Assembly: GCA_028715625.1 (NCBI GenBank)
Contig: JAQURL010000013.1
Location: forward strand, 1-46,003
Source of the DNA: Candidatus Margulisiibacteriota bacterium
GTDB taxonomy: Bacteria > Margulisbacteria > Riflemargulisbacteria > GWF2-35-9
Direction of reading: 5' to 3'
DNA length: 46,003 bases
This document shows, one piece after another, positions 689-39,866 of the stretch. A model generated the notes under the pieces. That model ran no database searches. It was not told where the DNA came from and worked only from the letters and a program-made list of their open reading frames with translations. Within the stretch, counting starts at the first letter, position 1; the number at the start of each line of letters is the position of its first letter. Made by a program: the position numbers and the translations under genes.

Positions 689-694
689 TAAAAT
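686..694 (+). promoter_or_regulatory. Extended -10 box, possible leaderless start
   Basis: TGATAAAAT has the TGn extension followed by TAAAAT (689-694) and ends six bases before the ATG at 701. No Shine-Dalgarno sequence is present and no good -35 is visible. The spacing would put transcription start at or next to the start codon. Confidence 0.4.
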
Positions 695-3676: not shown

Positions 3677-4969
3677 ATGAACCCACTGGCACTTGAATTA
3701 AATGAAGTTATAGAGAGAACATCAAAGACTGTTTTTTCTTTGCTGAGCCATAAAGGCAAGCAGATTTATTTCCCCAAAAAAGGAATTCTTGCCCAATCCG
3801 CAGACGCGGCAAGCAAAAAAATTAATGCGACCATTGGAACAGCCGTTGAAGACGACGGTTCTCCTATGCGTCTTATGTCTATTGCCAAAGAAATCAATAT
3901 CAGTCCGGCTGGGGCTTTTCCTTATGCGGCAAGCTATGGTCGTCCGGATATCAGGGAAAAATGGAAAACCATGCTTTTTGAAAAAAATCCTTCGCTTGCA
4001 GGGAAAGAAGTAAGTCAGCCGGTGGTGACCAGTGCTCTGACGCATGGTTTAAGCATGGTAAGCTATATGTTTGTGGAGCCGGGTGATGAAGTGGCTGTCT
4101 CGGATCTGTGCTGGGATAATTATAGTTTGATTTTTGAAAACGCCAGCGGCGGGCATATTATCACTTATCAATTATTTAAAAATGGCGGATTTGATATGGA
4201 ATCGATGGAAAAAGTATGTTTTAACGGTAAAATCGGGAAAAAAATTTTGCTTTTAAATTTTCCCAACAACCCTGCCGGATATACCCCGACAACGGATGAA
4301 GTGCAGAAAATAGTGGCAGTAATTAAAAAAGCTGCTGATAAAGGAAATAAAATTCTGGTTATTATCGATGACGCTTATTTTGGCCTTGTTTATGAAGATG
4401 GTATTGAAAAAGAATCTGTTTTTTCTTATCTTGCAGATTGTCATGAAAATGTTCTGGCCATAAAGGTAGACGGCCCTACAAAAGAGGATTATGTGTGGGG
4501 CTTCAGGGTAGGTTTTCTGACCTTTGGTATAAAAGGTGCGACAAAAGAACTTTACAATGTACTTGAGGCCAAAACAGCCGGAGCAATAAGGGGGAATGTT
4601 TCAAATTGTTCCAATCTTTCACAGTCTTTGCTGCTCGCCGCCTATAAATCCGCTGAATACGAAAACGAGAAACAGCAGAAATATGAACTTCTCAAGTCTC
4701 GTTATGAAGCTGTAAAACAGACATTAAAAGACAATCCGCAATATCAGGATTATTTTGAGGCCATCCCGTTTAATTCGGGATATTTTATGTGTTTGGAATT
4801 AAAACATGGCCTGGATGGTGAGAAAGTCAGACAGATTTTATTAAATGATTACGATACCGGCGTTATCTTTATATCCGGGGTAATTCGTGTTGCTTTTTCC
4901 TCTGTAAGCAAAGATAAAATACCTCTGCTTTTCGGCAACATTTATGAAGCTTGTAAAAAGGCAAAATAA
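3677..4969 (+). CDS. PLP-dependent class I/II aminotransferase
   Basis: This 430-residue protein has the fold-type I aminotransferase landmarks: NFPNNPAG (194-201), DDAYFG (231-236) with the cofactor-binding Asp and Tyr, Lys269 in GPTKEDYVWGFRVGF as the probable Schiff-base lysine, and Arg277. It should be a cytosolic enzyme moving an amino group between an amino acid and a 2-oxo acid. The substrate cannot be read from sequence; the long N-terminal part before PYAASYGRPDIRE differs from typical aspartate aminotransferases. The start is well supported by AAAGGAGAGG before the ATG. The gene has its own promoter and ends exactly where the convergent aldo/keto reductase gene ends. Confidence 0.88.
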   Translation: MNPLALELNEVIERTSKTVFSLLSHKGKQIYFPKKGILAQSADAASKKINATIGTAVEDDGSPMRLMSIAKEINISPAGAFPYAASYGRPDIREKWKTMLFEKNPSLAGKEVSQPVVTSALTHGLSMVSYMFVEPGDEVAVSDLCWDNYSLIFENASGGHIITYQLFKNGGFDMESMEKVCFNGKIGKKILLLNFPNNPAGYTPTTDEVQKIVAVIKKAADKGNKILVIIDDAYFGLVYEDGIEKESVFSYLADCHENVLAIKVDGPTKEDYVWGFRVGFLTFGIKGATKELYNVLEAKTAGAIRGNVSNCSNLSQSLLLAAYKSAEYENEKQQKYELLKSRYEAVKQTLKDNPQYQDYFEAIPFNSGYFMCLELKHGLDGEKVRQILLNDYDTGVIFISGVIRVAFSSVSKDKIPLLFGNIYEACKKAK

Positions 4970-5848: not shown

Positions 5849-6925
5849 TCAGCTCCTTTGTTTTTCAAAAACATGATCATTAAACCATTTTTCAAAATCT
5901 TCATTAGTCTCAAAGGAAAAACCGAAAACCTGTTTCCATACTGTCTGCGACTCCATGCATAGATAAATAAATTGTTCGGGATTATATTTTTTTATCCGGC
6001 CGGTTATTGTTTTATAGGCCCGTACCCTTCTGGGACGCAGATAACGAAGTTTGTTATCATCGCCGACAATAAATTCATCTATAAAGCCGGGGGATTTTTT
6101 AAAAAAGGACTGCATAAGACCTTTAGTAAAACGCAAGCAGCCCAGACTTATCCAGCTTATTTTTTCCGCGGGCACATAACGATAAATTAAGTCGATGACT
6201 TTTTTATAATCCTTTTCCATTTCTTCATAAAAAATAATCGGATCGAAATGAAAAGATAATTTATAACCGGCTTGTGCCAGTTTTTGAGCTGCTTCCAGAC
6301 GTTTTAGCAGGGAAGGAGTATTTCTTTCCACTTTTTGAATTATCTTATCAGTGTTTACAGACCAGCCGACAATAATGTTTCCCGGTGGAGTAATAGTCAG
6401 CAGATTGCCGACATTCAGCGATTTGGTTTTAAGCTCCAGCAGGATATGGGGATAATCTTTAAAAAAAGAAATCAGCTTTAAAGATATCCCGGAAATATTA
6501 TCAAGGGCCAGGCTGTCGGTAAACTCGCCGGTCCCAATCCTCATTTTTTCTTTATTAAGCTTTTTCAGCTGTCGTGGCAAATGTAATAACAATTCATCAA
6601 TATCGGTATAGATAACATGTGCTTTCAGCTCGAAATAATCTTGCAAAATACAGTAGGAACAGGAAAAAGGGCAGTTAATCTCGGTATTCAAAATATAATA
6701 ATTACAGCAACTATACTCGGTTGTTCCAGGACATTTTTTAAGAAAAGATCCCTTCAATCCTGTTAAAAGCAATACATCCGCCCTGTTGAATTTTTTAATA
6801 ATATTTTGTTCTTCCGCCGGTTTAAAAAAAGCAACAGGGATATTTTTAAAATGTTTTATTATAGATTTTGTAAAAGGCAGAGCTTTGATTTGTTCATTGA
6901 CCAGTAAATTTTTAAACGCCCTCAC
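5849..6925 (-). CDS. Radical SAM protein of the spore photoproduct lyase-like (SPL) family
   Basis: The 358-residue protein has the radical SAM cluster C85xxxC89xxC92 (CPFSCSYC) with the SPL family spacing. It also has GTGEFTDSLALDN (131-143), ELKTKS, GWSVNT and SFHFDPI. True spore photoproduct lyase repairs UV thymine dimers in spores and uses an extra cysteine about 45 residues after the cluster. Here that region reads GTGEFTDS with no cysteine, and nothing else in the window suggests sporulation. It is therefore more likely a non-spore SPL-family enzyme of unknown substrate, possibly acting on nucleic acid. The start is GTG with GGAG upstream. It overlaps the upstream unknown gene by 14 bases, which indicates tight coupling. 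Confidence 0.88.
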   Translation of the reverse strand: MRAFKNLLVNEQIKALPFTKSIIKHFKNIPVAFFKPAEEQNIIKKFNRADVLLLTGLKGSFLKKCPGTTEYSCCNYYILNTEINCPFSCSYCILQDYFELKAHVIYTDIDELLLHLPRQLKKLNKEKMRIGTGEFTDSLALDNISGISLKLISFFKDYPHILLELKTKSLNVGNLLTITPPGNIIVGWSVNTDKIIQKVERNTPSLLKRLEAAQKLAQAGYKLSFHFDPIIFYEEMEKDYKKVIDLIYRYVPAEKISWISLGCLRFTKGLMQSFFKKSPGFIDEFIVGDDNKLRYLRPRRVRAYKTITGRIKKYNPEQFIYLCMESQTVWKQVFGFSFETNEDFEKWFNDHVFEKQRS

Positions 6926-14887: not shown

Positions 14888-15148
14888 CTATCCTTTAAAC
14901 TTAAAATGTACGAAAATCCTGCCGAAATTTTTGTCGTCTTTTTCCAGCCGATGATAGAGCTTTTTTATTTCCGGACGGTTAAGAAAGCGCAGCACGCTTT
15001 TTTTAAGTTGCCCACTACCTTTGCCCGGAATAATTTCCACCAGTTCTATTTTTTTCCCCAGTGCCTCATCAATAAGCTCGTTTAATTCTTTTTCTATAAG
15101 AGCTCCTTTGTTAAAAATGTCATGCAGGTCAAGTTTTAGTTTGGCCAT
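14888..15148 (-). CDS. Small Smr-domain protein, 86 aa
   Basis: The whole protein is a Smr domain: LDLHD at residues 6-10, then IIPGKGSGQLKKSVLRFL (39-56) with the GxGxG turn, and a beta strand near the end (GRIFVHFKF). Smr domains occur at the C-terminus of MutS2 and as stand-alone proteins; several nick DNA or cleave RNA, with MutS2/SmrB acting on collided ribosomes. Here it stands alone and is paired with pth, so a role in translation rescue is plausible. That is inference from context. No SD is present, and a TATACT box lies nine bases before the ATG. Confidence 0.85.
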   Translation of the reverse strand: MAKLKLDLHDIFNKGALIEKELNELIDEALGKKIELVEIIPGKGSGQLKKSVLRFLNRPEIKKLYHRLEKDDKNFGRIFVHFKFKG

Positions 15149-15157
15149 TACTTAAAA

Positions 15158-15166
15158 AGTATAACA
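15158..15166 (-). promoter_or_regulatory. Extended -10 box of the Smr-pth operon
   Basis: On the minus strand TGTTATACT has the TGn extension before TATACT (15163 to 15158). Nine bases separate it from the ATG at 15148, so the message would have at most two or three untranslated bases. No SD is present. Confidence 0.45.
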
Positions 15167-18884: not shown

Positions 18885-20412
<1,528 letters not shown>

Positions 20413-20454
20413 TAAGGAGAACCATTTTTGTATCTCACGTACAAAATAGGCCGA

Positions 20455-24502: not shown

Positions 24503-24508
24503 TATAAT
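24503..24508 (+). promoter_or_regulatory. -10 box of the PPP phosphatase gene, leaderless spacing
   Basis: TATAAT (24503-24508) ends seven bases before the ATG at 24516. TTGTAC (24479-24484) at an 18-base spacing is a weak -35. No SD is present, so the message probably begins at the start codon. Confidence 0.6.
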
Positions 24509-24515
24509 CCTCAAC

Positions 24516-25151
24516 ATGAAAACAATCTATGCTATCGGTGATATACATGGCCAGCTGGAAATGCTCACTGCGCTTATCAAGAAAATAAATTTAAAACCCG
24601 ATGACCTTTTAATTTTTCTGGGAGATTATATCGACAGAGGGCCTGATCCTCGTGGTGTTATTGATTATCTTCTTGGTTTGGCCGAAACACAGGAGTGCAT
24701 ATTCCTGAAAGGCAATCATGAGGACATGATGCTCAGGGCTTTGGCCGGAGATGCTTCTTATTATCAAATGTGGATGTTAAATGGCGGAGAAAAAACAATA
24801 AACAGTTATGGTCGCGAAACAGAAATTATAAGATTACATGGGAAATTTTTTCAAACGCTTCTGCCTTATTATTCAACAGACAAATATTTTTTTGTACACG
24901 CCGGCATTAATCCCAATAAACCTTTAAATAAACAAACGGAACATGACCTGCTCTGGATAAGGGAGGAGTTTATCAATAACCCTACTCATATTGATAAAAA
25001 AGTAATTTTCGGTCATACGCATTACAACGAACCGTTAGTTTTAAAGGATAAAATCGGCATCGATACCAGCGCGGCCTGGGGAGGGCCTTTAACAGCGATA
25101 ATGCTGCCCGCAGAGAGGTTTATCTGCGTAAAAAATAATTTGCCACATTAG
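24516..25151 (+). CDS. PPP-family metallophosphoesterase (serine/threonine phosphatase-like)
   Basis: The 211-residue protein has all five metal-binding blocks of the PPP fold: GDIHG (8-12), GDYIDRG (36-42), GNHED (66-70), HAG near 126 and GHTH near 165. It should bind two metal ions and hydrolyse phosphate esters. Relatives include bacterial serine/threonine phosphatases (PrpA type, lambda phosphatase), symmetrical Ap4A hydrolase and PrpE. The compact size and FGHTHYNEP segment fit the PrpA/lambda group best. Substrate unknown. It is likely leaderless (TATAAT seven bases before ATG). The -35 of the folD promoter lies inside its last codons. Confidence 0.9.
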   Translation: MKTIYAIGDIHGQLEMLTALIKKINLKPDDLLIFLGDYIDRGPDPRGVIDYLLGLAETQECIFLKGNHEDMMLRALAGDASYYQMWMLNGGEKTINSYGRETEIIRLHGKFFQTLLPYYSTDKYFFVHAGINPNKPLNKQTEHDLLWIREEFINNPTHIDKKVIFGHTHYNEPLVLKDKIGIDTSAAWGGPLTAIMLPAERFICVKNNLPH

Positions 25152-25168
25152 CCTCGGCTCAATATAAT
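25140..25168 (+). promoter_or_regulatory. folD promoter, leaderless spacing
   Basis: TTGCCA (25140-25145), exactly 17 bases, and TATAAT (25163-25168) match consensus at eleven of twelve positions. Only seven bases separate the -10 from the folD ATG and no SD exists. Transcription should start on or next to the A of the start codon. Confidence 0.8.
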
Positions 25169-25175
25169 TGAGTCT

Positions 25176-26045
25176 ATGGATAACAAATTTTCAAAAAAAA
25201 TAATTGATGGAAAGCTTGCAGCGGCTCAAATAAAGCAGGAAGTTATTAAACAGGTAAAAGGGCTGAAAAAAAGGGGGATTACTCCCGGGCTTACAGTTAT
25301 TATTGTTGGTGAAAATCAGGCTTCTCAGGTATATGTGCGCAATAAGGAAAAAGACGCATCTGAAGTCGGTTTCAAGTCTGAAGTTATAAAACTGGATAAA
25401 GATATCAGTGAACAGAAATTATTGCAATTAATAAAAAAATTAAACAGCGACAAAACCGTACACGGCCTTCTGGTGCAGCTGCCGTTACCTCGGCACATTA
25501 ATGAATCCAAAGTGATAAATACAATAAGTCCGGAAAAAGATGTTGACGGCTTTCATCCCATAAATATCGGTAAACTGGTAACCGGAGACGAAACCGGCTT
25601 TGTCTCCTGCACACCTGGCGGCATAATCTGGTTGCTTAAAAGTGCAGGCATTGATTTGGAAGGAAAAGAGGCAGTCATTGTAGGCCGCAGCAACATAGTC
25701 GGCAAGCCAATGATTCATTTGTTGTTACGTGAAAACGCTACTGTAACGGTTTGTCATTCCCGCACTGTTAATTTGGCCGAAGTTTGCAAACGGGCTGATG
25801 TGCTTATTGCCGCAGTAGGAAAAAGCAGGTTGATAAAAAAAGAATTTGTAAAAAAAGGCGCCGTAGTTGTGGATGTGGGTATTAACCGTGAAGAAAAAGG
25901 TTTATGCGGAGATGTGGATTGCGAAGAGGTAATGCCGTTTGTATCCAGGATCACACCTGTGCCCGGCGGGGTTGGCCCAATGACCAGGGCGATGCTGCTT
26001 CTTAATACCATAAAAGCAGTAAAACTACAAAATGGCCTCGAGTGA
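25176..26045 (+). CDS. folD: Bifunctional methylenetetrahydrofolate dehydrogenase/cyclohydrolase
   Basis: The 289-residue protein has YVRNKEK (53-59) with the catalytic lysine, VQLPLP (100-105), KDVDGFHPINIGKL, the Rossmann segment VIVGRSNIVGKP near 168-179, and the terminal TPVPGGVGPMT. FolD interconverts 5,10-methylene-THF and 10-formyl-THF, supplying one-carbon units for purines and initiator tRNA. The length is normal. The start is fixed by a near-consensus promoter seven bases upstream, with no SD. The 3' end overlaps the next gene (MGMT family) by 14 bases, so the two are co-translated. Confidence 0.97.
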   Translation: MDNKFSKKIIDGKLAAAQIKQEVIKQVKGLKKRGITPGLTVIIVGENQASQVYVRNKEKDASEVGFKSEVIKLDKDISEQKLLQLIKKLNSDKTVHGLLVQLPLPRHINESKVINTISPEKDVDGFHPINIGKLVTGDETGFVSCTPGGIIWLLKSAGIDLEGKEAVIVGRSNIVGKPMIHLLLRENATVTVCHSRTVNLAEVCKRADVLIAAVGKSRLIKKEFVKKGAVVVDVGINREEKGLCGDVDCEEVMPFVSRITPVPGGVGPMTRAMLLLNTIKAVKLQNGLE

Positions 26046-27134: not shown

Positions 27135-27143
27135 TGTTATGAT
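27135..27143 (+). promoter_or_regulatory. Extended -10 of the LacI-type gene
   Basis: TGTTATGAT has the TGn extension before TATGAT (27138-27143). Six bases separate it from the GTG start at 27150. TTGTAG (27115-27120), inside the palindrome, is at the 17-base position for a -35. No SD is seen. Confidence 0.55.
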
Positions 27144-27149
27144 TATATT

Positions 27150-28133
27150 GTGATTACGCAAAAAGAGCTGGCTAAAAAATGTGGAGTATCGGTGTCTGCG
27201 GTATCCGCAGCCTTTAAAAGACCACAGCATTTATCCAGAGAAGTGCGAGAAAAGATTCTTGCCGCAGCACTTGATATGGGCTATTTCTCCGCAAAAACTG
27301 AAGTGAAAAACATAGGCTTATTATTTAACAATTTCCACGATCATTTTTTTGGTGAATATTATAATGAAATTATTTATGGAATTATGGAGAGGCTTTCGCA
27401 GCTTAACCTGCGTTGCCAGATTTTTAACAAAGTACCGGAAAAATATGCCGACATCTGTGAGTTACATGGTTTTCTGGTTGTTGGCAATAATACGGTTTCT
27501 ATAGCTAAGCCCCTGCTGGATTTCAAAATGCCGACAGTTCTGGTGGAATGTACAAAAAAAGAAGCTGAAACATTCTCCCGGATTTATTTTGATAATTATA
27601 GCGGAGTAAAGCAGCTCACAGATTATTTACTGTATTGCGGGCATCACAATATAGCCGTTCTTAACGGCGAAACCGATCCGGAAGACTTTTTCTGGAAGAA
27701 TTTTCAAAAGGCTATCCTGGATTCTTTTGCTGAAAATAATGTTAGCAGCACTCACATGAAATTTTATCAGGCGGATTATTCTAACATTCAAACTGTTGAG
27801 TTAAATATTAACAAAATATTATCCACCAACAAAAATGTAAGTTGCATCATGTGCTCCAACGATCTGTTTGCTTATCAAACTTTAAAAATTTTATCAGGAT
27901 ATGGAATAAAAGTTCCCGAACAGATATCTTTGACTGGGTTTGATGGTATTAATCTGCCCTTTTACTTAAATGAACCAGAGGTTAAGCTGACTACAGTGTT
28001 TGCCGACAGAACAGATATTAGCAAACAGGCGGTAGATCTTTTGCTGCAAGTTATTCCTGATAAAAAAATGCGTATTGTAAAAATGGAAACCAAACTGCTT
28101 ATAGGTAAGTCTGTTAAAAGGTTAAGAGTTTAA
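27150..28133 (+). CDS. LacI/GalR-family transcription regulator
   Basis: The 327-residue protein begins with a LacI-type helix-turn-helix (ITQKELAKKCGVSVSAVSAAF, residues 2-22) and the hinge helix region up to residue 48. A periplasmic-binding-protein-like ligand domain follows, with NIGLLFNN, TVLVECTKK, IYFDNYSG, VSCIMCSNDLFAYQTLKIL and ISLTGFDGI. Such regulators usually bind a sugar or nucleoside and leave DNA or change affinity. The effector is unknown, and no transport or sugar gene lies next to it. The start is GTG, consistent with a leaderless message. The 23-base palindrome just upstream suggests it represses itself and the divergent gene. Confidence 0.9.
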   Translation: MITQKELAKKCGVSVSAVSAAFKRPQHLSREVREKILAAALDMGYFSAKTEVKNIGLLFNNFHDHFFGEYYNEIIYGIMERLSQLNLRCQIFNKVPEKYADICELHGFLVVGNNTVSIAKPLLDFKMPTVLVECTKKEAETFSRIYFDNYSGVKQLTDYLLYCGHHNIAVLNGETDPEDFFWKNFQKAILDSFAENNVSSTHMKFYQADYSNIQTVELNINKILSTNKNVSCIMCSNDLFAYQTLKILSGYGIKVPEQISLTGFDGINLPFYLNEPEVKLTTVFADRTDISKQAVDLLLQVIPDKKMRIVKMETKLLIGKSVKRLRV

Positions 28134-29690: not shown

Positions 29691-29699
29691 TGTTATAAT
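29691..29699 (+). promoter_or_regulatory. Extended -10 of the SurA-like gene
   Basis: TGTTATAAT is a perfect extended -10 (TATAAT at 29694-29699) that ends eight bases before the ATG at 29708. No SD and no good -35 are seen. Confidence 0.6.
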
Positions 29700-29707
29700 A
29701 TTAGCCA

Positions 29708-30706
29708 ATGAAAAAGGTCTTTATAAGCATAATTTTCTTTATAGCAACATTGGCCATGGCCGATCAATACGTAGCCGTTGTAGATGGCGTTACCATTAAC
29801 TTTAAAACATTTAACAAAATGGTGCAGGATTCTGTTTCGGAATATAAAAAAAATTTATTCCTGGCCAGTGATGCCAAATTGAGCGACGAGGAAATAGACA
29901 GCATCAAACAATCAGTTCTGAGCACACTAATTGAAGACACCATGTTGGCTAGTTATGCCGGGAAAGAAAGAATCACTATAAATGAAACAGAAATAAAAAA
30001 GCGCATCAATGATCTGGAAAAAGGTTTTCCTTCCAGAGAAGAATTTCTAAAAACACTCAAAAACCAACATATAACAACTGATAATTTAAAAAGCAATATA
30101 AAAAAACAAATAACCAAGGATAAAATTATGGCCTCAATTTATCACGATTATGAAGAAATAAGCTCGCAGGATATATTGTTTTATCTCAAAAAAAATATGC
30201 TGATCAATATGGCTGTTCAATATAACTTGACCTTGCTGGTTACCGATGATGCACTTTATCTGGAAAGATTAAAAGATTTTTCCATTACATCGGAAAATTG
30301 GGAGTCTTTAAAAATCGATAAGGCCTTGTCCTATTTTTCAAAGAATATATCTGATGAAGAATTACCGATTACTATTAAGGATATGATAGTTGTCAGCGAA
30401 TTAAAGAAATATTCAACCATAGATACGCTGGAAGACAACCATTATTTTATGATAATGGTAAATCACATCGAGAACATTTCGCTGGTAGATACAAACAGTA
30501 TTTCGGCTTCTGTGCGTAATGCCCTGAAGGCTGAAAAAAGGAATAGATACTTTAATCAATGGATTGAAGATCAAAAAGCTAAAAGCAAGATTTTAATTAA
30601 CCAGGAGCTAATAAAAAAGGAACAACAGCAATCGAAACCTAAATATTTATTCCAGGATTTTTGGTCACCTTTCAAAAAGAAAACATCTGAGGTAGACTCT
30701 AAATAA
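29708..30706 (+). CDS. SurA N-terminal-like periplasmic chaperone
   Basis: The 332-residue protein has a signal peptide (MKKVFISIIFFIATLAMAD). A SurA_N-type helical domain follows, opening with VAVVDGVTINFKTFNKMV and containing SVLSTLIEDTMLASYA, INETEIKKRIND and LKSNIKKQITKDKIM. The middle region (about 160-260) is where SurA has its first parvulin domain. The usual HIL and GW.. motifs are missing, so the isomerase part is degenerate or absent. The C-terminal helix AEKRNRYFNQWIEDQKAKSKI matches the SurA return segment. It probably helps fold outer-membrane proteins. It is co-transcribed with mazG one base downstream. Confidence 0.75.
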   Translation: MKKVFISIIFFIATLAMADQYVAVVDGVTINFKTFNKMVQDSVSEYKKNLFLASDAKLSDEEIDSIKQSVLSTLIEDTMLASYAGKERITINETEIKKRINDLEKGFPSREEFLKTLKNQHITTDNLKSNIKKQITKDKIMASIYHDYEEISSQDILFYLKKNMLINMAVQYNLTLLVTDDALYLERLKDFSITSENWESLKIDKALSYFSKNISDEELPITIKDMIVVSELKKYSTIDTLEDNHYFMIMVNHIENISLVDTNSISASVRNALKAEKRNRYFNQWIEDQKAKSKILINQELIKKEQQQSKPKYLFQDFWSPFKKKTSEVDSK

Positions 30707-31543: not shown

Positions 31544-31592
31544 AAGAAGGCTGTCAAAAATCAATTAATTATTTAATTAAGGAGGAGCATAA

Positions 31593-33652: not shown

Positions 33653-35101
33653 TCACAAAATAGGTGAAAATAATCTTGCCACAGATTCAGCGGTTTTTTG
33701 AATAATATTTTTCTTTTTTATATCGATTGAATTTATTTTGGTGCTGTTTTTAATATCCTCAAGAAAGTCCATGTTCAACTTGTTGACGACCTGACTATTA
33801 TAAATCAATGCGTTTATCTCAAAATTGATATTCATGCTGCGCTGGTCCACATTGGCACTTCCGATAGTGGCAAAAACTCCGTCTACTGTTATTACTTTGG
33901 AGTGTATAAACCTGTGCGGATTATATACATAAAATTCCACACCGGCTTCCATTACTTCTTCCACAAACGAAAAAGTTGCCAGATAAACGATCATATTATC
34001 AGGTTTGCCGGGTATAAGTATCTTTACATCACAACCGCCTAGCGCAGCTGTTTTCAGAGCCATAAGCAGAGCCTCATCAGGTATGAAATAAGGAGTAGTA
34101 ATATATAATGTTTTCTCGGCGGAAGCGATTGCTTCAAAATAAAGCTGCGCTATAGTATCCCATTTTTCATGAGGGGAGCTGGGCATAATTTGTACTGCAC
34201 AATCGCCAAAAGCCTGGTCAGCCAAATCAGGAAAGAAGTAACTGTTACGTTGAAGTTTCTTTTTGGTTGTAAAAAACCAGTCCTGAAAAAAAATAGCCTG
34301 CATACTTAACACTGCATCACCCGAGACTTTTGCAACCGTATCGCGCCAGTAGCCGAAGCGTAAATCTTTTCCCAGATATTCATTGCCGATATTCATGCCC
34401 CCCAGATAGCCGATAGTACCGTCAATAATCACTATTTTGCGGTGATTCCTATGGTTCGCGGAAAGGTTTAGCAGAAAAAAAGGATGAAAAAGAGAAATTT
34501 CAATATTGGGATGATGTAAGTCTTTTAAAAGGCCATGGTCCAAACCCTTTTTTGAGCCAAGAGCGTCCAGGATCAGCTTGATTTTAACCTTTTCTTTTGC
34601 TTTATTGAGCAGAAGATTTTTAAAAAGTTTGCCGGTTTCGTCATTTTGAAAAATATAATATTCCAGATGTATATGGTGTTTGGCCTGAGAGATATCAAAG
34701 AGAATAGCCTGAAAAGCATCATCTGTGTCATTAAATAGTTGTATGGAATTATTCCAGCTTACCGGCAAATGGGTAGTAAAGGTGGCGATATTTATAATGG
34801 CGCGTTTTTTGGTGGCTTCCATACTGGCTGCGATTTGCTGCTCCAGAGCCTGTTTTGGGGGCAATTCTTTTAATGTCTGAAAATAACTTGATTCTGATAC
34901 TCGAGCCTGAATTACACGTTTACGCCAGTTAATTCCAAAGAAAAGATAGAGCACAAAACCTATTGGTGGTATGAAATATAATACCAATAGCCAGCTGATT
35001 ATTTTTGTCGGATTTTTTTTAGAAAATAAAACAATGATGATAAAAATAAAATTGATATTTAAAAAAAAGGTGTAAATATGAGATAAAATTTCAGCTGTCA
35101 T
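33653..35101 (-). CDS. cls: Cardiolipin synthase, phospholipase D type
   Basis: The 482-residue protein has two N-terminal membrane helices (FFLNINFIFIIIVLF and PTKIISWLLVLYFIPPIGFVLYL in part). Two HKD phospholipase D motifs follow: NHRNHRKIVIIDG near residue 218 and RFIHSKVITVDG near 393. Bacterial Cls joins two phosphatidylglycerol molecules into cardiolipin and glycerol. The length and spacing match ClsA. The ATG overlaps the plsC stop (35098-35101), so lipid synthesis genes are coupled in one leftward operon. Confidence 0.95.
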   Translation of the reverse strand: MTAEILSHIYTFFLNINFIFIIIVLFSKKNPTKIISWLLVLYFIPPIGFVLYLFFGINWRKRVIQARVSESSYFQTLKELPPKQALEQQIAASMEATKKRAIINIATFTTHLPVSWNNSIQLFNDTDDAFQAILFDISQAKHHIHLEYYIFQNDETGKLFKNLLLNKAKEKVKIKLILDALGSKKGLDHGLLKDLHHPNIEISLFHPFFLLNLSANHRNHRKIVIIDGTIGYLGGMNIGNEYLGKDLRFGYWRDTVAKVSGDAVLSMQAIFFQDWFFTTKKKLQRNSYFFPDLADQAFGDCAVQIMPSSPHEKWDTIAQLYFEAIASAEKTLYITTPYFIPDEALLMALKTAALGGCDVKILIPGKPDNMIVYLATFSFVEEVMEAGVEFYVYNPHRFIHSKVITVDGVFATIGSANVDQRSMNINFEINALIYNSQVVNKLNMDFLEDIKNSTKINSIDIKKKNIIQKTAESVARLFSPIL

Positions 35102-35835
35102 TTTATTTTTGCAAGCATCTCACTAAGAATTTTTTCGATGTTCTCAGCGGTTTTGATGCTATATTCCCTGCTTCTGTTTGTCCAATCAAAAACCAGAGGA
35201 TGACCGAACACAAGACGTATTGGTTGACGTTTTAAAAAAAGTGAACCCTTGGGCATAACTTTGTAGGCTGGATTAAGGACCACCGGGAGCAAGGGAGTTT
35301 CAGTATCAAAAGCGATCATAATGGTACCGCGTTTAACAGTACCGAGCTTTCCTGTCCGGCTACGTGTTCCTTCTGGAAAAATTAAAATAGAAGTACCTTT
35401 TCTGACCATTTCGTTTATCTGTTCGATAGTTTCACGGGCTTTTTTGGTATTCTTGCGGTTTATTGCTATATAACCGCACTTTTTCATTGAGCTGCCTAAC
35501 AAGGGGATATTAAATAGTTCCTCTTTGGCAATGAATAAAAACCCCGGAGGCAGCACTGCCAGAGCAATAAGTATATCCAACTGGCTTTGGTGATTAAAAA
35601 TATAGATATATGATTTTCCGGCATCAGACATTCTGCCTGTGATTTTGGGATAAAGACCGCAGAGAAAAAGAATTGTTCTGGCCCAGGCCCTGGCAAACAC
35701 AGAGTAATAATAATGCTTTTTCCTCCCCAGAAAAGGGTAGGTAATAAAAATCGGAATTGAGAATAAAAAATACAGAAAAAAACTGATAAAAATAAAATAC
35801 AGGGAATAAAGCAAATTTAAGAAAACACCGAACAT
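35098..35835 (-). CDS. plsC: 1-acyl-sn-glycerol-3-phosphate acyltransferase
   Basis: The 245-residue protein has an N-terminal membrane segment, the catalytic HX4D motif in NHQSQLD (near residues 82-88), and the substrate-binding FPEGTRS near 153. A KRGTIMIAFD segment and VVLNPAYKVMPKG follow. PlsC makes phosphatidic acid from lysophosphatidic acid at the inner membrane. It is the first gene of a two-gene operon with cls. The promoter TTGTCA-17-TATAAT lies just upstream, with only six bases between the -10 and the ATG. Confidence 0.95.
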   Translation of the reverse strand: MFGVFLNLLYSLYFIFISFFLYFLFSIPIFITYPFLGRKKHYYYSVFARAWARTILFLCGLYPKITGRMSDAGKSYIYIFNHQSQLDILIALAVLPPGFLFIAKEELFNIPLLGSSMKKCGYIAINRKNTKKARETIEQINEMVRKGTSILIFPEGTRSRTGKLGTVKRGTIMIAFDTETPLLPVVLNPAYKVMPKGSLFLKRQPIRLVFGHPLVFDWTNRSREYSIKTAENIEKILSEMLAKIK

Positions 35836-35841
35836 AGCCTT

Positions 35842-35870
35842 ATTATAACGAAGGGCAATGGTTTTGACAA
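35842..35870 (-). promoter_or_regulatory. plsC-cls promoter, leaderless spacing
   Basis: On the minus strand TTGTCA (35870 to 35865), a 17-base spacer and TATAAT (35847 to 35842) match consensus at eleven of twelve positions. Six bases separate the -10 from the plsC ATG at 35835. The message would begin at or immediately after the start codon. Confidence 0.75.
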
Positions 35871-36169: not shown

Positions 36170-37099
36170 TTACTCCTGAAAATTTAAATGGCTTCTGGGG
36201 TTGTAAGAATGTTTTTTACTCCAGTTTTCAAAAAAAGTTTTTAATTCAGGGTCAATTTTTTCCGGCAAGACAATTTTAATTACAACAATTTGGTCCCCTT
36301 TATTTTTTGTTGACCTTAAGTAATACCCCTTGCCTTTCATGCGGAGCTTTGTGCCACTATTCACGCCGGCAGGTATGGTTAAAAGGACCTTGCCTTCTAT
36401 TGTGGGGACTTCAATTTTTGCACCGTTTATAGCTTCATTAATTGTTACTGGCACTTCCAGTACCAGATTGGCTCCCTCTTTTCTAAAGGTCGGAGAATTT
36501 TTTACACGCACTTCCACATATGCGTCTCCGGACTTGCTTCTACCCATACCCTTGGAGCCGTGGCCTTTGAAGCGAAGTTTGGTCCCGGATTCTATGCCTG
36601 CTGGAATTTTAACTTTCAGATGTTTTCCTTTAGCCAGAATAATTTCTTTTTCTACACCCAACACGGCTTCCTTAAACGTAATTTCCATTGAATACTGTAT
36701 GTCTTGCCCAGGGAATTCGACCTGGTCTTCGAAATTTCCTGAAAAACCACGTGTTGTACTGCCCTTAAATAAGGTATCAAAAAAATCTTCATAATCTCCT
36801 TGTGCGTAATTACCATATCTGGAACCGGGTGTTTGAGTTTCATAATAGAATGGCCCCTGACGCCCTGCTTGCGCATAATCCTGATAATTAGGTTGTGCAT
36901 TTTCCTGTTCAAGTCTGTCACGTGCTTCTTTGTTTTTTATTAGTTCATAAGCATTATTTATTTCTTTAAATTTTTTTTCAGCATCCTTATTCCCGGCATT
37001 CAAGTCCGGATGATATTTTTTGGAAAGCTTGCGAAAAGCCGCTTTAATTTCAGTATCAGACGAAGTTTTGCTCACACCTAATATTTTATAAGGGTCCAT
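36170..37099 (-). CDS. cbpA: CbpA-type DnaJ co-chaperone
   Basis: I chose the ATG at 37099 because the J domain (MDPYKILGVSKTSS) begins there, and the 21 upstream residues are hydrophobic noise. The protein has about 309 residues. It has a J domain with HPD near residue 33, a G/F/Y-rich linker, and two C-terminal substrate-binding domains (KIPAGIESGTKLRFKGHG and TIPAGVNSGTKLRMKGKG). The zinc-finger CxxCxGxG repeats of DnaJ are absent, which makes it a class B (CbpA) protein. It works with DnaK in protein folding. TGCTACATT lies nine bases before the ATG. It is followed by the cbpM-like gene. Confidence 0.93.
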   Translation of the reverse strand: MDPYKILGVSKTSSDTEIKAAFRKLSKKYHPDLNAGNKDAEKKFKEINNAYELIKNKEARDRLEQENAQPNYQDYAQAGRQGPFYYETQTPGSRYGNYAQGDYEDFFDTLFKGSTTRGFSGNFEDQVEFPGQDIQYSMEITFKEAVLGVEKEIILAKGKHLKVKIPAGIESGTKLRFKGHGSKGMGRSKSGDAYVEVRVKNSPTFRKEGANLVLEVPVTINEAINGAKIEVPTIEGKVLLTIPAGVNSGTKLRMKGKGYYLRSTKNKGDQIVVIKIVLPEKIDPELKTFFENWSKKHSYNPRSHLNFQE

Positions 37100-37159
37100 A
37101 ATATTATTAATGTAGCATAAATTTAAAAAATTAAAAGAAAAATTTTGCAAGAAACAGTT

Positions 37160-39837: not shown

Positions 39838-39866
39838 TTGACCTTTGATGTAATTTATAGCAAAAT
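39838..39866 (+). promoter_or_regulatory. Candidate promoter of the split glutamate synthase operon
   Basis: TTGACC (39838-39843), 17 bases and CAAAAT (39861-39866) match consensus at nine of twelve positions, nine bases before the ATG at 39876. A second TATAAT lies at 39787-39792 without a good -35. No SD precedes the gene. Confidence 0.5.

Follow-up and report, generated by a model that had tools for sequence, protein, structure and literature searches.

The start of folD in this genome raises the question of how translation is initiated on messages whose promoter appears to lie directly against the start codon. A TATAAT hexamer (25163..25168, + strand) ends seven bases before the ATG of the gene (25176..26045, +), and TTGCCA (25140..25145, +) stands 17 bp from it as a candidate -35 element, inside the last codons of the same-strand gene that lies 24 bp ahead of folD. 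That upstream gene (24516..25151, +), a metallophosphoesterase by domain match (PF00149, calcineurin-like phosphoesterase) with only distant relatives in the genomes compared, shows a similar start: on re-reading, TATAAT occupies 24503..24508 (+), seven bases before ATG 24516, and there is no Shine-Dalgarno (SD) sequence. Both genes are predicted to be leaderless. The window, i.e. the whole stretch of DNA analysed, comprises 46,003 bases at the start of contig 13 of a genome of 2.63 Mb (127 contigs, an estimated ~97% complete, 38% GC). It carries a single rRNA operon (16S, tRNA-Ile, tRNA-Ala, 23S and 5S), and the anti-SD at the 3' end of the 16S rRNA (20400..20413, +) is intact and reads ATCACCTCCTTTCT. 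A 16S probe for Omnitrophota gave no match.

Further starts in the window show the same arrangement. The initial annotation had listed nine -10-like hexamers, all of which were found at their positions and spacings when the sequence was re-read. Besides the two described above, plsC (35098..35835, minus strand), an acyltransferase (PF01553) also predicted to be leaderless, has TATAAT at 35842..35847 (minus), six bases before ATG 35835, and on re-reading TTGTCA at 35865..35870 (minus) as a putative -35 element 17 bp from the -10. TATAAT is also found eight bases before the SurA-like gene at 29708 (29694..29699, +), where 7 of 11 orthologues have a start-adjacent -10. The remaining hexamers are -10-like, and the weaker ones of the window are, taken singly, not significant from one genome. 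TATACT (15158..15163, minus), nine bases before the Smr-domain gene at 15148, and TATGAT (27138..27143, +), six bases before the GTG of a LacI-type regulator at 27150, were re-read in the window only. TACATT (37109..37114, minus), nine bases before the cbpA start at 37099, has partial support from orthologues, with TACAAT at 6-7 bases in two of five genomes and weaker hexamers in two. CAAAAT (39861..39866, +), nine bases before ATG 39876, is seemingly the weakest case listed; it is preceded by TTGACC (39838..39843, +) as a candidate -35 element that aligns among genomes of the order, and TTGACN-17-nAAAAT-9-ATG is aligned in each of the six genomes of the order in which the gene is present. TAAAAT (689..694, +), six bases before the start at 701, gives a mixed picture, with a -10 at the start in 5 of 12 orthologues. 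The 136-aa protein encoded there (701-1111) consists of a release-factor catalytic domain only (peptidyl-tRNA hydrolase-like, resembling ArfB/prfH-type proteins) and is 58-81% identical across the class, and its start signal varies among relatives.

Strong SD sites had also been claimed for enolase (31593) and for the genes at 3677, 10145 and 16957, and AAGGAG-type sites are indeed present at all four. Enolase, with the SD AAGGAGGAG at 31579..31587 (+), serves as the control for the SD mode, since an SD is found in 22 of 24 orthologues. Its name rests on the earlier annotation together with its length and conservation (82-86% identity over 427 residues within the order). The gene at 3677, another SD control, encodes a protein resembling PLP-dependent aminotransferases.

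Statistics were based on forty 20-kb stretches of the genome plus the window (846 kb, about one third of the genome), containing 642 genes with upstream sequence, of which 157 are leading (transcript-first) genes without an SD. Start codons were called with a simple home-made script based on codon usage, which is blind to upstream signals. A hexamer counted as a match if it differed from TATAAT at no more than one position and ended 4-9 bases ahead of the start; one expectation was taken from positions 16-60 and a second from 200 dinucleotide shuffles. An SD was present in ~51% of the 642 genes, compared with a chance level of 18% in a shifted control region.

The initial annotation had proposed looking for a TATAAT peak near the starts of genes lacking an SD, and in these 846 kb the peak was found. 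Among the 157 leading genes without an SD there were 52 matches versus 21.9 expected (~26 by shuffling), and exact TATAAT occurred 13 times versus 2.1 expected (p = 4e-7). No such peak was found in leading genes with an SD, which had 5 matches versus 26.8 expected and no exact TATAAT versus 3.2. When the window itself was excluded, the leading genes without an SD still gave 45 matches versus 22.1±3.9 in the 200 shuffles (maximum 34), and 10 exact hexamers versus 2.1. Genes lying 10-59 bp behind a same-strand gene, as folD does, gave 20-21 matches versus 7.6 and 9 exact hexamers versus 0.7-0.8, and for neither these nor the leading genes did any shuffle reach the observed count. Genes overlapping their neighbour or lying less than 10 bp behind it, in contrast, showed no excess (10 versus 9.5, exact 0). 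An excess in leading and gap 10-59 genes together with none in tight packing is what leaderless genes should show, since each needs its own promoter. When all hexamers were ranked by their enrichment at the start-adjacent place in genes without an SD, TATAAT came third, outranked only by two G-runs that both look like variant SDs. Among 52 cases classed as leaderless-type by a model, 49 start with ATG. The spacing among model-classed cases in this genome is broad (3-12 bases), so that short leaders of a few bases may be present on some messages.

Other searches were less informative or were set aside. A whole-genome search for exact TTGACA-16/18-TATAAT-4/9-ATG gave no match (one in the reversed control), the pattern being too strict to inform. 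De novo expectation maximisation without a seed settled on a weak GC-rich motif that had no constant position, and seeded models took its place. A three-class mixture left free put 30% of leading genes in a -10 class and was dropped as an estimate, with shifted controls at 1-15% and the control at shift 20, where the ordinary promoters of SD genes lie, also at 30%.

The nature of the hexamers was examined by comparing 102 start-adjacent ones, pooled from five samples, with 10,919 equal hexamers in coding regions. An extended -10 (TG one base upstream, TGn) accompanied 33% of the start-adjacent hexamers versus 5% of the coding controls (p = 2e-18). The corresponding figures for a -35-like site at 16-18 bp were 37% versus 13% (p = 1.7e-9), with the maximum of the -35 score at exactly 17 bp. 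Neither feature had entered the selection of the hexamers. The other sigma-70 elements are thus found in register with the start-adjacent hexamers, which identifies these, as far as sequence can, as putative promoter elements. Sigma-70 polymerase starts transcription about seven bases after the -10. With a spacer of 6-8 bases, the first transcribed base would consequently fall at the start codon or within two bases of it.

Conservation was followed most closely at folD and plsC. In the order to which the window belongs, folD has TATAAT 6-9 bases before its ATG and no SD in seven of seven genomes; among the other 23 relatives an SD is present in 18 and a start-adjacent -10 in none. In a scan of named genomes the folD matches were all distant. 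For plsC, 16 of 30 genomes, representing six or more families, have a -10 with at least five of six matches and no SD, and six more have a weaker one, compared with 0-7% at shifted places. At both genes all seven genomes of the order share the hexamer exactly, against an identity of the 40 bases upstream of 38% at folD and 30% at plsC, with hexamer identity somewhat favoured because the best hexamer in the allowed range was chosen.

The surroundings of folD differ across the phylum. In 12 relatives of other families (L129-L131, L133-L139, L142, L144) folD lies directly behind mnmE, and in most of these loci the folD start is directly preceded by one or two DnaA boxes (TTWTCCACA), the pairs being 12-13 bp apart; several also have an exact parS site (TGTTTCACGTGAAACA) close by. 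Because of these DnaA boxes and parS sites, the mnmE-folD locus is probably situated next to the replication origin. The boxes overlap the SD region of folD, which in these loci is mostly SD-led. The order of the window lacks this arrangement, and there folD has other neighbours and a start-adjacent promoter.

The peak is not confined to one genome. Another genome of the same order (G005) gave 21 matches versus 4.3 expected, and genomes from other families of the phylum gave 20 versus 3.3 (G014, 46% GC) and 10 versus 3.5 (G011, 52% GC). In a genome of the same class (G007, 58 leading genes), where an SD is present in 69% of leading genes, no significant peak was found. The small samples from G001 and G003 contained few but positive cases, with little or no significance alone. 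No peak was seen when 36 low-GC loci from named genomes, Bacillota for the most part, were pooled (5 versus 3.2). Expressed as a share of all genes, the leaderless-type excess over shuffles was 5.8% in the genome of the window, 8.7% in G005 and 10.0% in G014, all of which are lower bounds, as the one-mismatch rule misses weaker -10s and at plsC catches 16 of ~22. For the genome of the window a share of 10-15% is plausible, an estimate that stays below 20%. The initial annotation had regarded leaderless translation as a major mode in this lineage; it was right as to the kind of initiation and overstated its extent for this genome, since SD sites are present in ~51% of genes and the leaderless-type layout in between ~6% (the lower bound) and 10-15%. 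The leaderless-type genes are a substantial minority.

A further third or more of the genes, including about half of the tightly packed operon genes, have neither an SD nor a -10, and some of these will be products of start-calling error. As about half of the operon-internal genes show neither signal, absence of an SD says nothing by itself. Among genes separated by less than 10 bp from a same-strand gene ahead of them, 105 of 200 have no SD and no above-chance -10, compared with 10% without an SD in the named low-GC loci; such genes may represent a third, coupling-dependent mode or, again, errors in start calling.

The position of the hexamers, their promoter identity by independent marks, their conservation and their mutual exclusivity with SD sites are direct observations. 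With the intact anti-SD, the peak, the promoter marks and the conservation across genomes give strong support to the mixed initiation that had been proposed. It is very probable that two initiation layouts, SD and leaderless-type, exist side by side in this genome, the transcript start and the leaderless translation being what we infer. Leaderless-type genes would mostly be the first of their transcript or would follow closely on another gene with a promoter of their own. This promoter, of the sigma-70 type, often TGnTATAAT and accompanied in some cases by a -35 at 17 bp, would end 5-9 bases before the start, so that RNA polymerase would begin at, or a few bases from, the A of the ATG, and on the resulting leaderless message the ribosome would start without SD pairing. 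The layout appears to be inherited gene by gene, for plsC across much of the phylum and for folD in one order.

Three other explanations of the start-adjacent hexamers have to be weighed. AT-rich start regions could contain TATAAT-like hexamers by chance, with the real promoters further upstream; the genome has 38% GC, and several of the weak sites listed in the window could indeed have arisen in this way. As an account of the whole pattern this is extremely unlikely, because none of the 200 shuffles reaches the excess, the hexamers carry -35 and TGn marks, the higher-GC genomes G011 and G014 show the peak too, and TATAAT is kept at folD in seven of seven order genomes and at plsC amid flanks that are only 30-38% identical. 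Alternatively, the promoters could be real and the start codons wrong, with translation beginning at a downstream in-frame codon that has an SD and the messages carrying ordinary leaders. The starts do come from the caller alone, which sometimes misplaces those of membrane proteins. However, genes with an adjacent -10 have a further in-frame start behind a strong SD in the next 30 codons no more often (9.8% of 102) than SD genes do (8.3% of 216), and orthologues of plsC and folD align from residue ~3-9, with mostly one possible start in the order, at a shared position. We therefore regard misplaced starts as a very unlikely general explanation.

The near promoters might also be secondary, in which case the main messages would be leadered transcripts from further upstream, translated independently of SD sites through low structure, and the near -10 would yield a minor leaderless form. 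It agrees with this that folD, with 24 bp to the same-strand gene ahead of it, could also receive read-through transcription, and that many genes without an SD are also without any -10. On the other hand, conservation has preserved the -10 and a spacing that sets the start, amid diverging sequence further upstream, and the near -10 and an SD exclude each other. A secondary role is thus very unlikely as a general account, although the near promoter may be a minor one at single genes such as folD. The coexistence of SD and leaderless-type starts, each with its own layout, accordingly remains the preferred reading.

As judged from the DNA, this layout appears to be the known bacterial 'TA-led' leaderless class in an additional lineage, what is new being the lineage, together with evidence for a mode that follows the gene. 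TA-led genes have a TANNNT or -10-like signal ~10-12 bp upstream of the start and no SD, in numbers above shuffled controls; they coexist with SD genes, are rarer inside operons, and contribute to leaderless shares of ~20% in Actinobacteria and around 40% in Deinococcus-Thermus (Zheng et al. 2011, PMC3160421). Apart from the shares, these features are found here too: a hexamer at a fixed short distance (~10-13 bp) upstream of the start occurs above shuffles, the genes lack an SD in spite of the intact anti-SD, and they lead transcripts and are absent from tight operon-internal positions. In contrast to that work, the share appears to be lower, with lower bounds of 5.8% in the genome of the window and 10.0% in G014 against more than 20% in the Actinobacteria and Deinococcus-Thermus lineages, and gene-by-gene conservation was traced for several loci. 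In Deinococcus-Thermus, a -10 directly before the ORF with an optional -35 was described for about one third of genes, with expression and mutation tests (Zhong et al. 2025, PMC12340547). The position of the -10, the optional -35 and a leaderless mRNA, inferred or shown, are common to both systems, but here the evidence is from sequence, the share appears smaller and a TGn extension is often present. According to the StartLink paper (PMC9581028), GeneMarkS-2 predicts that 21.6% of bacterial species transcribe some of their genes without leaders, and these mixed genomes resemble the present one in combining a leaderless part with SD sites for other genes, here classed by a simple script.

These observations add a lineage to a mode that is best documented in Actinobacteria and Deinococcus-Thermus. 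They also matter for annotation, since tools that chiefly seek SD sites are often used to place gene starts in genomes of this kind, and up to a tenth of the genes are at risk of wrong starts. With a -10 kept across deep branches at plsC and the other mode of folD in one order, the two genes offer a natural series for asking why genes become or stay leaderless. Initiation mode might even be a stable, selected property of each gene in the phylum, with plsC leaderless in much of it and conserved there just in its -10 box and the distance from box to start, enolase SD-led and folD switching with its neighbourhood; this is a tentative proposal that we consider possible, though somewhat doubtful. 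If true, leaderlessness could serve regulation, for example by adjusting membrane lipid synthesis to changes in initiation factors or ribosome state.

Two minor observations concern other genes. The protein encoded at 5849-6925 on the minus strand of the window is distantly related to spore photoproduct lyase, its score against NCBIfam TIGR04070 (103 bits) falling short of the cut-off of 400. In the sampled stretches of this genome, two divergent gene pairs are only 43 bp (L106:6091-6133) and 31 bp (upstream of L105:534-1691, minus) apart, leaving little room for ordinary leaders, and have predicted -10 boxes beside both or one of their start codons.
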